NCBI GenBank assembly: GCA_900199595.1
Contig: FZRB01000019.1
Coordinates: 27,456-82,624, forward strand
Source of the DNA: Lachnospiraceae bacterium
Lineage (GTDB): Bacteria > Bacillota > Clostridia > Lachnospirales > Lachnospiraceae
Length of the DNA: 55,169 nucleotides
Direction: 5' to 3'
Shown here: one piece after another, positions 38,026 to 55,169 of the stretch
Layout of the letters: each line of letters starts with the position of its first letter
Position numbering within the stretch: the first letter of the stretch is position 1
The notes under the pieces: generated by a model
Databases searched by the model: none
What the model was told of the DNA's origin: nothing
What the model saw: only the letters and a program-made list of their open reading frames with translations
Translations under genes and position numbers: made by a program

Positions 38026-39324
38026 CTATCTTTTCACATTATCCTTATTTCTAATCGCTACTATCCTCTGATATATCGTCGGATGGTCATGATACAGGAT
38101 AACCATTAATGGGTGTGGATTTATATCAATCAGTTCGTCACTGCTCATACGCTTAAAAGTTGCTATAAGCTCCTCACCATATCCATTTTTTACTGCCTCC
38201 TGATCAGCCTCATACTCTTCCTTTCTCTGTCTGTAATTTCCAAATATACCAAATAGTGAGAGTACCGGTCTTCCTATCCCGAGCATCATAGAAAATAATA
38301 TGTAATTATTTGGCACTGTAATATTAAATGACCTGTTTATCCATTCAAGAAAACCAAATTCCTGGGGTACCGTCTCCGGCATAGCAAGGATTATCCAAAA
38401 ACAAACCATAAACAATATAAAGACTATGTATTTGCTGTAATCCATAATATTTTTTTTATGCTTCAGATGCCCTATCTCATGAGAAAGTACTGCAAGAAGT
38501 TCTCTTTCTGAGTTCTCATTAAGAAAGTTGTCTGCAATACCAAACTCTCTATAGAACAAAAATCTTAATAAGAAGGCATTTTTTGAAACCGACTTCTTAG
38601 ACTCGTCGTACACATAGATTCTCTTTACTTTCTTCTTTGAGGATTCCTGAAGGGCATTTATCTTATTCCTCAGATCACCTTCTTCCAACGGCGTAAACTT
38701 ATATTGAATACGAAGTGAAACTATCTGAATAACAACCATAATAACTACAAAAACAAAGAAAGCTGCAGCTATAGCCAGACATACCAGAAAGCTTTTAAAA
38801 TAATCCAATTTATATGTCACTGCAAAATCATCCATCTCTGTAATAAGAGCTGTAAATACCTCCATAACTGCAGTTACTACCATTAACTGAGTAATAATTC
38901 CTACAATTGAGTCCTTCACAAACTCTTTTAAATTCATTTTATTCAGCTTATACTTTTCCCTTATAACAAATGTATTGTAATAGCGAAAAGGTATGCCGAC
39001 TATTTCATCTATAAACATTAATATCATTACTGTTATCATAACAATGACATATACATTTTTATTCGATATATCTTCTATCCACACAAAAATCGGCGATAAA
39101 ATAACAACCGTATCTATAATGAACTGTATCAGCTTTCTTATAAAGAATATCCTTTTTTTATCGGATTTATAATCCAAAAAAGTCTGATATCTATCTTTAT
39201 CATAAATATCAGACACTTCCTCCGGAAGAGGCTTACTGCGTTGTATCTTAGCTATATGAGCTTTGATCATGGACCATATAAGATCCAGTACATTTAATAA
39301 AATAAAAACTATACGAGCTGACAT
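38026..39324 (-). CDS. M48-family membrane metallopeptidase (Ste24/HtpX-like)
   Basis: 432 aa, about six membrane helices at ~2-18, 65-83, 90-108, 140-160, 180-202 and 290-312 and one later. Zinc motif HEIGH at ~282-286 in VLSHEIGHLKHKKNI, with the third ligand Glu in KEEYEADQEAV. FREKYKLN-like IREKYKLNKM before the protease domain is typical of CAAX-protease/Ste24 relatives. It starts one base after the stop of the XRE regulator, with AAGGAG inside that gene. A membrane protease controlled by a one-gene-upstream HTH protein resembles signal-cleaving pairs, but no target is known. Confidence 0.87.
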   Translation of the reverse strand: MSARIVFILLNVLDLIWSMIKAHIAKIQRSKPLPEEVSDIYDKDRYQTFLDYKSDKKRIFFIRKLIQFIIDTVVILSPIFVWIEDISNKNVYVIVMITVMILMFIDEIVGIPFRYYNTFVIREKYKLNKMNLKEFVKDSIVGIITQLMVVTAVMEVFTALITEMDDFAVTYKLDYFKSFLVCLAIAAAFFVFVVIMVVIQIVSLRIQYKFTPLEEGDLRNKINALQESSKKKVKRIYVYDESKKSVSKNAFLLRFLFYREFGIADNFLNENSERELLAVLSHEIGHLKHKKNIMDYSKYIVFILFMVCFWIILAMPETVPQEFGFLEWINRSFNITVPNNYILFSMMLGIGRPVLSLFGIFGNYRQRKEEYEADQEAVKNGYGEELIATFKRMSSDELIDINPHPLMVILYHDHPTIYQRIVAIRNKDNVKR

Positions 39325-53188: not shown

Positions 53189-54694
53189 CTACTTTAAACC
53201 GTACTTTTTATTCTTTTTGCGAGTAGGCTTAGTTTCCTTTATCTTAACCTTATGATCAGTTATTCCATGCTTATATAAAGCATTTGAAACAAGTTCTCCC
53301 GTCTGGACGCTGATTGGCCAGTTAGACTCTGCCTTAAAACTCGGAACATAAACTGTTATATCTTCCTTATTTTTTTCTCCCGCAGAGACTATCTGATCTA
53401 TTATGTCATTATCAATTGCTATACATTTCTGATGATTAATATTTCTTATATTAGTTTCTTTAAATGTAATGCCCTGTGTATTTATTTCGAAAAAAACAAC
53501 TATAACAATAAGAGGCAGCGCAATTCTGATTACAGGCTTTTCTCTCATCAACGAAAGCAGCATCGTCATCAGCATAATAAAAAGAAAGAATATATGACCG
53601 AATAATATGTCAGGTCTCTGTATACTTCCTATATAATGAAGCGATGAAACCATGATCAGATATATTAGTATTATAAATGATGTAAGTATACAGAATAATA
53701 CTGTTTTTACATCTTCTTTGTAATTGCTTGTTTTTTGTTTACAACCTATTATGAGAGCAATTATAAATATCAAACATATAATAATATAGAATATCGAAAA
53801 AGATGTACTTAGGGTTTCACCGAGAGCCAGATACTGCTTAGCCTGAGCTCCAAAAAGCTGCAGCTTAGAAGTCTTTGTTTTTATATCATCAGCCCGTCCG
53901 CCATTTACTTCAAAGATCTGTACCACCAGCCAGAAAATGAGAAGTATTATACGAAAGGTATTTCTTTTTAATAGCTCTTTTAAAGAATCCTTTTTCTTAA
54001 ATCCCCAAATTATATCTATCACAAATCTACAACCAACATATCCTGCCAGAATAATACTTGCATAAAGATTTGAAAGAAGTGCCAGATAAATAAATACTAT
54101 ATATACGCCATATCTTACCGGATTCTTCATAATAGCTTTTCTGTCATAAGTCAGAACATCCTTTTCGGAAAGCTGCATCACTATACAGGCATTTATTATA
54201 TTCGGAATAATATAATAGAAGTAACAGGTAAGATCCAGACCGTTAAACATATATTCGTTTGAGCTATCCTTATATCTGAATATCCAGAAATGCATTATCA
54301 GAAATAATACAGAAATAAAGATATTTGTCAGCTGGGACGTCTCGTATTTTTTTTCTATAACTTTATAAAATGTATAAATATAAAGCGTAATGAATAAACT
54401 TACAACAATAGCATTAATTATAATATTTGCATTAATGAAGTCCTTAGTAAAAGGATAAATGACAAATGAACCAATCTCGGCAACAAGAGACATGAATATC
54501 TCCGGCAGTACTCTTGTGGGATTCCATTCCTTCCATACAGGGAAAGCATGACGGGTAAATACTATATATTTCCAGTCATCTGAATCGTAAATAACCAGCG
54601 GATGGATACGGGAATAGAAAACAAACATAACAACAAACACCGCTGCAGTAAATATGAACAGTACTATTCGGTTTTTTCTGTCATTTACATTCAT
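53189..54694 (-). CDS. Polytopic membrane protein, glycosyltransferase-like (GT-C/DUF6056-type)
   Basis: 501 aa with about ten to twelve membrane helices. Near the start, after helix 1, an extracytoplasmic DSDDWKY loop (YDSDDWKYIV) resembles acidic catalytic loops of GT-C glycosyltransferases. Ends in a soluble lobe with basic tail KPTRKKNKKYGLK. Probably uses a lipid-linked sugar to decorate surface glycans, but the family is not certain. AGAGGAAAAAAG precedes ATG 54694; the open frame back to 54766 is only the family B repeat being translated. Confidence 0.72.
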   Translation of the reverse strand: MNVNDRKNRIVLFIFTAAVFVVMFVFYSRIHPLVIYDSDDWKYIVFTRHAFPVWKEWNPTRVLPEIFMSLVAEIGSFVIYPFTKDFINANIIINAIVVSLFITLYIYTFYKVIEKKYETSQLTNIFISVLFLIMHFWIFRYKDSSNEYMFNGLDLTCYFYYIIPNIINACIVMQLSEKDVLTYDRKAIMKNPVRYGVYIVFIYLALLSNLYASIILAGYVGCRFVIDIIWGFKKKDSLKELLKRNTFRIILLIFWLVVQIFEVNGGRADDIKTKTSKLQLFGAQAKQYLALGETLSTSFSIFYIIICLIFIIALIIGCKQKTSNYKEDVKTVLFCILTSFIILIYLIMVSSLHYIGSIQRPDILFGHIFFLFIMLMTMLLSLMREKPVIRIALPLIVIVVFFEINTQGITFKETNIRNINHQKCIAIDNDIIDQIVSAGEKNKEDITVYVPSFKAESNWPISVQTGELVSNALYKHGITDHKVKIKETKPTRKKNKKYGLK

Positions 54695-54719
54695 CTTTTT
54701 TCCTCTCGAGTTTATAGAA

Positions 54720-54843
54720 CAAAGAGTGTCGCTTGCGACACTCTCCGCGCGAGCGCGTGCTGCCAAAGGCAGCTATCTTCCTTATGCGCCGAGACGCATC
54801 CTTAGCGGAGCGCTTTTTATATAATAGGAAGCGCAGTTTCCTA
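54720..54843. repeat. Stacked mini-hairpin repeat family B, copy 2, extended with further hairpins
   Basis: Bases 54720-54783 match the block at 32431: AGAGTGTCGC-TT-GCGACACTCT (54723-54744), a CGCGCGAGCGCG stem, and CTGCC-AAA-GGCAG (54760-54772). Then ATGCG/CGCAT (54784-54799), AGCG-GAG-CGCT (54804-54814) and TAGGAA/TTCCTA (54825-54843). It fills the gap between the membrane protein gene and the IS110 left end. Confidence 0.85.
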
Positions 54844-54918
54844 CTACAATGATTTTATAGTGAATATTCTTAACATCCAGTTAAGATATTATCTATCTTA
54901 TTGCTTAAGCTGTATAAT

Positions 54919-55100
54919 GATGGGGCAATAGGTATATCGGCAGTTTCCATGGACTTTGCGTCCGTATAATAGACTGATAACCAGCTCCTCATTAGCAGCG
55001 TTCGTTTTATGCAGGTTGTTTCACCATAAGGTGCATTCGTGTCACACCACAGTAGATTGAATAGGCAATGAGTAAAACTGGTGTATATCCATTGCACTAT
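54919..55100 (+). ncRNA. Candidate IS110 bridge RNA
   Basis: A TATAAT box at 54913-54918 precedes about 175 nt of noncoding sequence that can close on itself: GCAATAGGTATAT (54925-54937) pairs with ATATCCATTGC (55085-55095) with two bulges. Inside are GGAC/GTCC (54951-54963) nested in CAGT/ACTG (54941-54976) and CACC-ATAA-GGTG (55022-55033) with an alternative GGTG/CACC pairing to 55045-55048. IS110 bridge RNAs of about this length are known to be made from the noncoding end next to the transposase gene. The RNA here is predicted only. Confidence 0.5.
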
Positions 55101-55123
55101 TTTTTTTAAGGAGTGACAAATAT

Positions 55124-55169
55124 ATGAACGCAGTAGGTATTGATGTATCAAAAGGTAAGAGTACAGTTT
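55124..55169 (+). CDS. IS110-family transposase, N-terminal fragment at window edge
   Basis: 15 codons, MNAVGIDVSKGKSTV, cut by the window end. GIDVSKG is the first motif of the RuvC-like DEDD domain, with its first catalytic Asp. AAGGAG lies 10 nt upstream of the ATG. Whether the gene is full length cannot be seen. Confidence 0.85.
   Translation, partial: MNAVGIDVSKGKSTV

Follow-up and report, generated by a model that had tools for sequence, protein, structure and literature searches.

A predicted bridge RNA gene in the left end of an IS110-group insertion sequence, with two alternative target loops in one Lachnospiraceae genome

Introduction

When a contig ends inside a mobile element, what does the non-coding DNA that remains encode? 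The window (the whole stretch of 55,169 nucleotides analysed here) raises this question at its right edge. Contig C33 ends where the window ends, inside an insertion sequence, and the transposase gene is cut after 46 bases. Upstream of the transposase ATG lies a leader of 281 nucleotides (54843-55123), which we find to be non-coding; a sequence-only reading of this DNA had put the non-coding stretch at about 200 nucleotides and had proposed that it specifies a bridge RNA. Bridge RNAs are known and are under development as tools for rearranging DNA. Judged from the sequence comparisons presented here, the leader is almost certainly the bridge RNA gene of an IS110-group insertion sequence.

Results

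The element and its transposase

The left end of the element occupies positions 54841-55169 of the window, and its features are collected in Table 1. The sequence-only reading had placed the element at 54844-55169; the left end stands, and the start given for it falls slightly inside the element, which begins with the core CT. The transposase start that it recognised is also present, as an ATG at 55124 followed by MNAVGIDVSKGKSTV. The gene is cut after 15 codons, and an intact copy is absent among the assembled contigs of this genome. In another genome of the genus there is a left end, L025, that is 94% identical to that of the window, and the 128-residue protein start that it encodes (P0001) matches PF01548, DEDD_Tnp_IS110, with an E value of 1e-21. 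Because this near-identical left end encodes a PF01548 start, the transposase of the window belongs to the IS110 family, as had been supposed. When 61 genomes were searched with the left end, there was a match of any kind in 10, mostly short. Among 299 genomes from the same family, 46 contain relatives of the P0001 transposase start, and the nearest ones of full length are about 80% identical. L042, one of these, carries both PF01548 (DEDD) and PF02371 (the transposase domain with serine) and shows homology to two bridge recombinases of solved structure, IS621 and ISCro4; ISCro4 is its best match among solved structures, a local similarity of the proteins over two stretches with E 4.9e-17.

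Table 1. Features of the left end and of its flank, in window coordinates
Feature	Position	Strand	Evidence or remark
Hairpin-rich interspersed repeat (family B) holding the target	54716-54842	+	ends in the left half of the target hairpin
Left target half GCAGTTTC	54833-54840	+	identical to left target guide 54940-54947, 8 of 8
Core CT, flank/element boundary	54841-54842	+	first bases common to all 7 own left ends (6 distinct flanks)
TACAAT, candidate -10 half of an end-junction promoter	54845-54850	+	right end supplies TTGACT; 17-bp spacer
5' stem-loop (helix 1)	54858-54895	+	both-side changes in 10 of 14 pairs
Bridge RNA as matched by model R1	54896-55072	+	184 bits, E 1.4e-45
Main stem, 5' strand (helix 2), partner 55063-55072	54897-54906	+	96.7% of cells paired
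Stem below target loop, 5' strand (helix 3), partner 54984-54999	54909-54926	+	both-side changes in 6 of 16 pairs
Target-binding arm (helices 4, 5)	54931-54982	+	hot spot of differences between copies
Left target guide GCAGTTTC and core position CA	54940-54949	+	equals left flank
Target-loop tip hairpin TGGAC..GTCCG (helix 5)	54950-54964	+	95% of cells paired, 24 diverse sequences
Right target guide TATAATAG, reverse complement CTATTATA	54965-54972	+	fits right flanks of own copies
Donor-binding arm (helices 6-8)	55000-55062	+	
Left donor guide TGCAGGTT	55010-55017	+	element right end reads TGCAGGCT
Right donor guide AGTAG	55051-55055	+	complementary to left end CTACT
Tail segment TATCCATTGC, can pair with 54925-54934	55086-55095	+	complementarity conserved; covariation not significant
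Shine-Dalgarno-like site of the transposase, AAGGAG	55108-55113	+	sequence
IS110 transposase start, cut by contig end	55124-55169	+	ATG then MNAVGIDVSKGKSTV; PF01548 in matching copy P0001

The opposite end of the element can be read from other contigs. The right ends of the relatives read TTGACTTTTTATTTGCAGG-CT, a few differing by one base, and TTGACTTTTTATTTGCAGG occurs exactly eight times in the genome under study, never more than 343 bases from a contig end and always with CT directly 3' of it. The pattern search in this genome gave 10 matches, of which two with three mismatches were discarded as non-ends and the eight exact ones were used. On contig C13 one locus (L074) retains a 65-residue C-terminal piece of a transposase that by eye resembles the C-terminus of the relatives; a Pfam scan of this piece gave no match. 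Here, and in the relatives inspected, the right end lies about 130 nucleotides past the stop codon; in the window the left non-coding end is long, with 281 nucleotides upstream of the gene. A transposase with PF01548 and PF02371, a long non-coding left end and a short right end together point to membership of the IS110 group. Seven left ends were found in the same genome (the window and L002-L007). They share their sequence from 54841 on, are about 95% identical and differ mainly in the target loop; their flanks differ, except that the flank of L006 equals that of L007.

Several observations in the neighbourhood of these ends may be recorded. The contigs that carry L006 and L007 (C25 and C23) begin alike: over the 100 bases compared, neither the element ends nor the flanks differ, through either an extended duplication or an artefact of assembly. 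The right end of one copy (L076, 1-320) is interrupted, and an opposite-strand frame there resembles by eye the helix-turn-helix part of a transposase. In L025 (3-1500) the element stands directly upstream of a frame that by eye is plasmid-relaxase-like, and its left flank is of the Shine-Dalgarno type. The one PF01548 match in the own genome was borderline and lay in a 1415-codon frame whose sequence is by eye unlike a transposase, and it was rejected; the one PF02371 match, in a 224-codon frame on contig C10, is perhaps a remnant of another IS110-type element. Adjoining the insertion in the window is a membrane-protein-like frame of 504 residues (53189-54703), a Pfam scan of which gave no match.

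The leader folds as a bridge RNA

Four parts make up the fold of the leader, namely a 5' stem-loop, a main stem and two arms, of which the first is termed target-binding and the second donor-binding. The sequence-only reading had noted internal stem-loops, and the segment 54858-55072 does fold better than shuffled sequence, with -64.1 kcal/mol, a z value of -3.89 and none of 200 shuffles as good. The fold is conserved among related copies. When the tail hairpin is counted in, 86.7% of cells are paired over 56 related leaders, and 18 of the 86 pairs show changes on both sides. In 24 diverse leaders 92.9% of cells are paired, as against at most 43.6% when the fold is slid along the alignment, and there are both-side changes in 27 of 74 pairs (95 such cells, compared with 29 in shuffles). 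The covariation score for these 24, in a test that left out the tail hairpin and one guide pair, is 0.233, compared with 0.141 for shuffles, of which none of 500 reached the observed value, and with at most 0.062 for slid folds.

A covariance model, R1, was built from 27 relatives without the own copies or L025, and from these elements of other genomes it matches the window at 184 bits. R1 recovers all seven own left ends, including a truncated one on contig C4 at 106 bits. Across 13 sources it finds a match upstream of the transposase in 11, with the distant ones at 31-140 bits; L031 and L033 do not match. The leaders of other IS110-type elements in the genus and beyond (L027, L028, L029, L066, L068, L032, L070 and L030) scored 31-140 bits. 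A second R1 match in the window, at 39144-39192, had 12.9 bits and E 0.13 and was taken as chance. An Rfam scan of 54000-55169 gave no match up to E 1.

A different fold had been drawn by the sequence-only reading, in which a long stem joins 54925-54937 with 55085-55095. This stem can form. It appears when 54920-55100 is folded (z -1.27, with 22 of 200 shuffles as good), and in the 24 diverse sequences nine of its pairs are 82.5% paired, compared with at most 42.0% when slid. However, its covariation is no better than that of shuffles, and the base of the target-loop arm, for which the support is good and the covariation strong, cannot form together with it. A test of the pairing gave z -3.2 (9 of 10,000) with 16 diverse members, a set chosen post hoc, and z -1.0 (338 of 2,000) with all 71. 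We reject the long stem as the main fold and consider it very unlikely that it is the functional one. What remains of the earlier proposal is a foldable leader, in which the fold that matters is the bridge fold of 54858-55072. In the longer mRNA the long stem may form as an alternative, and the conserved complementarity of the target-arm base to the sequence just before the ribosome site of the transposase is possibly a switch between guide RNA and mRNA.

The donor loop and the promoter

If the leader encodes a bridge RNA, its second loop should match the ends of the element itself. On the left side of this loop the donor guide contains TGCAGG, the same as the TGCAGG of the right ends of the own copies, and right ends hardly vary. 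On the right side the guide is readable in 16 of 24 loci, and most of these pair a left end CTAC with a guide GTAG. By eye, left end and right donor guide change jointly in L062 (CTCC with GGAG) and in L063 (CTAT with ATAG), where the boundary is fixed because the left-target match is good. GGAG is also found in L054, L055, L059 and L060, but CTCC occurs in the target as well, which makes the boundary ambiguous there. The match of the second loop to the ends, TGCAGG to the right end and AGTAG to the left end CTACT, has the form expected of a bridge RNA, and we conclude that this loop would pair with the element's own ends. In L028, L029, L066 and L068 the right end reads AGCAGG-TT, and perhaps the core is TT in these elements.

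The ends also supply a candidate promoter. A TATAAT box that had been pointed out in the leader is indeed present, at 54913-54918, and it sits inside a conserved RNA stem. In many relatives it is not kept and reads TTAGAAT, and by eye there is no properly spaced -35 element; it was accordingly rejected as the main promoter. The own right ends read CCTTGACTTTTTATTTGCAGG followed, across the boundary, by CT, and when the two ends are joined the sequence reads TTGACT-17-TACAAT, with the spacing counted by eye. Compared with TATAAT, this junction of right and left ends would make the better candidate for a promoter.

Two target loops in one genome

The first loop reads, in order, left guide, CA, tip hairpin and right guide. 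In the window the left flank is GCAGTTTC-CT, equal to the left guide, and the right guide predicts CT-ATTATA. The same guide (guide 1, which predicts CTATTATA) is carried by four left ends, those of the window, L002, L003 and L004. A second one (guide 2, which predicts CTATGTTA) is carried by the other three, L005-L007. The sequences that follow the eight exact right ends also fall into two classes, CTATTA in five (CTATTATATAA in four and CTATTAAAATAG in one) and CTATGTT in three, so that the CTATTATA predicted from the window follows four own right ends. Since both flanks are never found on one own contig, left and right ends were assigned to lineages by their sequence class. There are five and three right flanks to four and three left ends, and it seems that one left end is unassembled.

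How good is this fit? All eight own right flanks match the better of the two right guides at five or six of six bases, while the right flanks of 52 relatives, scored in the same best-of-two manner, have a mean of 2.7 and a maximum of 5, reached once. The left flanks of the guide-1 copies match guide 1 at 8, 6, 8 and 7 of 8 positions, compared with a mean of 2.4 and a maximum of 5 for the left flanks of 63 relatives. The guide-2 copies fit their left flanks less well, at 5 of 8 in each of two distinct flanks, and the L006 flank scores equally with guide 1. Two alternative target loops thus appear on otherwise near-identical copies in a single genome.

A match of this kind might arise without any guiding, if flank sequence had been copied into the leader by chance or by gene conversion, and the left guide of the window is in fact a nine-base copy of the flank, GCAGTTTCC. 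However, the same guide is found at the non-repeat flank of L002 as well as at two other repeat copies (L003 and L004), the right guide has its match at the opposite end of the element, in reverse complement, and the register is fixed over dozens of elements. We give hardly any credence to copying, and return to guiding by the loop.

The target of the window lineage is part of a repeat. The stretch 54716-54842 matches 15 further places in the genome over this part only, 12 of them over at least 69 bases. The repeat (seen in the window and in L011-L023) is about 130 bases long and contains many small hairpins; its usual end is a larger, terminator-like hairpin between runs of T and A. The end of most empty copies is a hairpin that reads ..TATAATAGGAAACGCAGTTTCC.. 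and continues into a right arm of varying sequence. One empty copy, at C35:32886, reads GCAGTTTCCTATTATA, in agreement with the left and right guides of the window and with the earlier suggestion that the loop should match the family B repeat; there is one mismatch at C10:144305 and at C33:7080. Three of the four guide-1 left ends (window, L003 and L004) are within the repeat, and L002 is outside it. Hairpin copies that continue with CTATTATA make up 2 of 10 empty and 4 of 4 occupied ones, a difference with a hypergeometric p of 0.015 that is based on small numbers and was counted after looking. This count excludes L189 and L191, which are not hairpins, places with three mismatches, and the L073 site, which is outside the repeat. 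The loop of the window lineage matches the hairpin that ends a repeat, unlike the usual target of the clade, to which we now turn.

Guides and flanks across the relatives

The correspondence between guides and flanks extends to related elements. Of 330 related stretches the best 80 were taken up, and a guide parser with a strict pattern read 71 rows from the full set of loci; loci that it did not recognise, for example L085, L087, L088, L118, L126 and L143, were left out. L007 was merged with the identical L006, and L001, identical to the window, was left out of the permutation test. The left test has 69 elements (L089 is without a flank), and the right test has 52, at least six readable bases of right flank being required. 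Left guides match their own flanks at 389 of 552 positions, compared with 301.3 (sd 8.1) for shuffled flanks (z 10.9), and right guides at 207 of 312, compared with 118.4 (sd 7.4; z 11.9). In these tests, which include relatives and own copies, none of 10,000 shuffles on either side was as good as the real pairing. With a single element per guide, z is 7.8 on the left (28 elements) and 9.4 on the right (30 elements). Target positions -1 to -5 on the left match in 55-62 of the 69 elements, and positions 1-5 on the right in 33-40 of the 52, the sixth base matching in 17 only. Some fits are poor: L090 and L133 have 2 of 8 on the left, L097 and L107 have 3 of 8, and the L042 flank is offset by one base; on the right, L049, L052 and L110 have 0-1 of 6. 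As these results suggest, both target strands would be paired with the first loop, which covaries with the flanks.

They also bear on whether the leader might be only the structured leader of an mRNA that controls translation of the transposase, with the protein choosing the target. Control of translation by the leader has been reported for ISPpu9 of the IS110 family (PMC8450116), and the base of the target arm is a possible pairing partner of the tail segment at 55086-55095. A leader acting in this way alone predicts no match between guide and flank, and the proposal is therefore contradicted by a variable loop that fits the flanks on both sides and that exists in two versions in one genome as well as across relatives. 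We regard it as highly improbable, and the bridge RNA remains our interpretation.

The usual target of the clade is Shine-Dalgarno-like

The commonest left guides among the relatives are forms of CTTCCTTTCT, and the guide of the clade presumably resembles the anti-Shine-Dalgarno tail of 16S rRNA. A large share of the left flanks, 47 of 66 by a loose pattern, read CTCCTTTC, which is a Shine-Dalgarno sequence in reverse complement. Of the 66 left flanks of at least 250 nucleotides, 38 have an open reading frame, 60 codons or longer, whose start is 4-22 bases to the left of the element and which reads away from it, as against 14.9% for random places within the same flanks. In the 50 insertions for which both flanks are known, a start codon lies just outside the element on the left in 28 and on the right in 2, and on the left shifted by 122 bases in 7. 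Insertions thus tend, as far as these positions indicate, to fall upstream of a neighbour's ribosome site, the neighbouring gene being on the opposite strand, and they leave that site intact. By eye, the left flanks of the own guide-2 copies are also of the Shine-Dalgarno type.

We think it likely that these elements form an IS110 clade, mainly from Lachnospiraceae in the present material, that is programmed for Shine-Dalgarno sites, and that one lineage in this genome keeps that guide while its sister has been redirected to a hairpin repeat. As a part of this reading, it is likewise probable that the redirected lineage fills four of the six hairpin copies that best fit its right guide. No report of Shine-Dalgarno targeting by IS110 bridge elements was found in a search of mostly open-access literature, without bioRxiv, and a word search of PMC11208160 gave no match for Shine, start codon, intergenic or Lachnospir.

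Discussion

The sequence-only reading could have failed on three counts, and on each of them it stood: the structure is conserved among related copies, the loops are complementary to flank and ends, and the transposase is of the IS110 family. We infer transcription, binding and catalysis, which would proceed as follows. The element would excise as a circle, and the joined ends would create a promoter of the sigma-70 type (TTGACT-17-TACAAT) from which the leader is transcribed. The bridge RNA would be bound by the DEDD/serine recombinase. One lineage in this genome would then be guided to one side of the hairpin at the end of the repeat; the guide of the other resembles those of relatives at Shine-Dalgarno-like sites, the usual target of the clade.

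This architecture is already known from the bridge RNA of IS621, as described in PMC11208160 and PMC11208158. According to the former, IS621 has in its left end a 5' stem-loop followed by two stem-loops with internal loops. In each loop, as here, the 5' side pairs with the bottom strand over 8-9 nucleotides and the 3' side with the top strand over 4-7. The CT core and the palindromic repeats as targets (PMC11208160) are shared as well, and the end junction found here is a candidate for the kind of promoter that IS621 rebuilds at its circle junction. The present elements differ from IS621 in their host and sequences, in the Shine-Dalgarno-like usual target and in the two target programmes in one genome. 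The seekRNA elements ISEc11 and ISXne4 (IS1111) and ISEc21 (IS110) also obtain a guide RNA from the non-coding end. According to PMC11187229, redirection has occurred naturally between ISEc11 and ISXne4, two elements with 72% identity of their transposases. In contrast, the redirection found here is between left ends about 95% identical within one genome. ISPpu9 of Pseudomonas putida resembles the present case: it belongs to the IS110 family, its seven copies lie in REP palindromes, and its transposase mRNA has a structured 5' leader (PMC8450116). It differs in its reported control by two small RNAs. As far as our literature searches show, two things are new, the presence in one genome of near-identical copies with two target programmes, and a clade whose targets are Shine-Dalgarno-like sites.

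Near-identical copies with two target programmes amount to a natural experiment, and they support the idea that the loop, and not the protein, sets the site. The many diverged loops of the clade are a source of target-guide pairs from which the rules for mismatches might be learned. Its preference for Shine-Dalgarno-like sites suggests a route by which an RNA-guided element may find a generic target of low harm. If this is true, a Shine-Dalgarno guide would provide a harmless landing place beside almost any gene, with both the ribosome site and the gene left intact.
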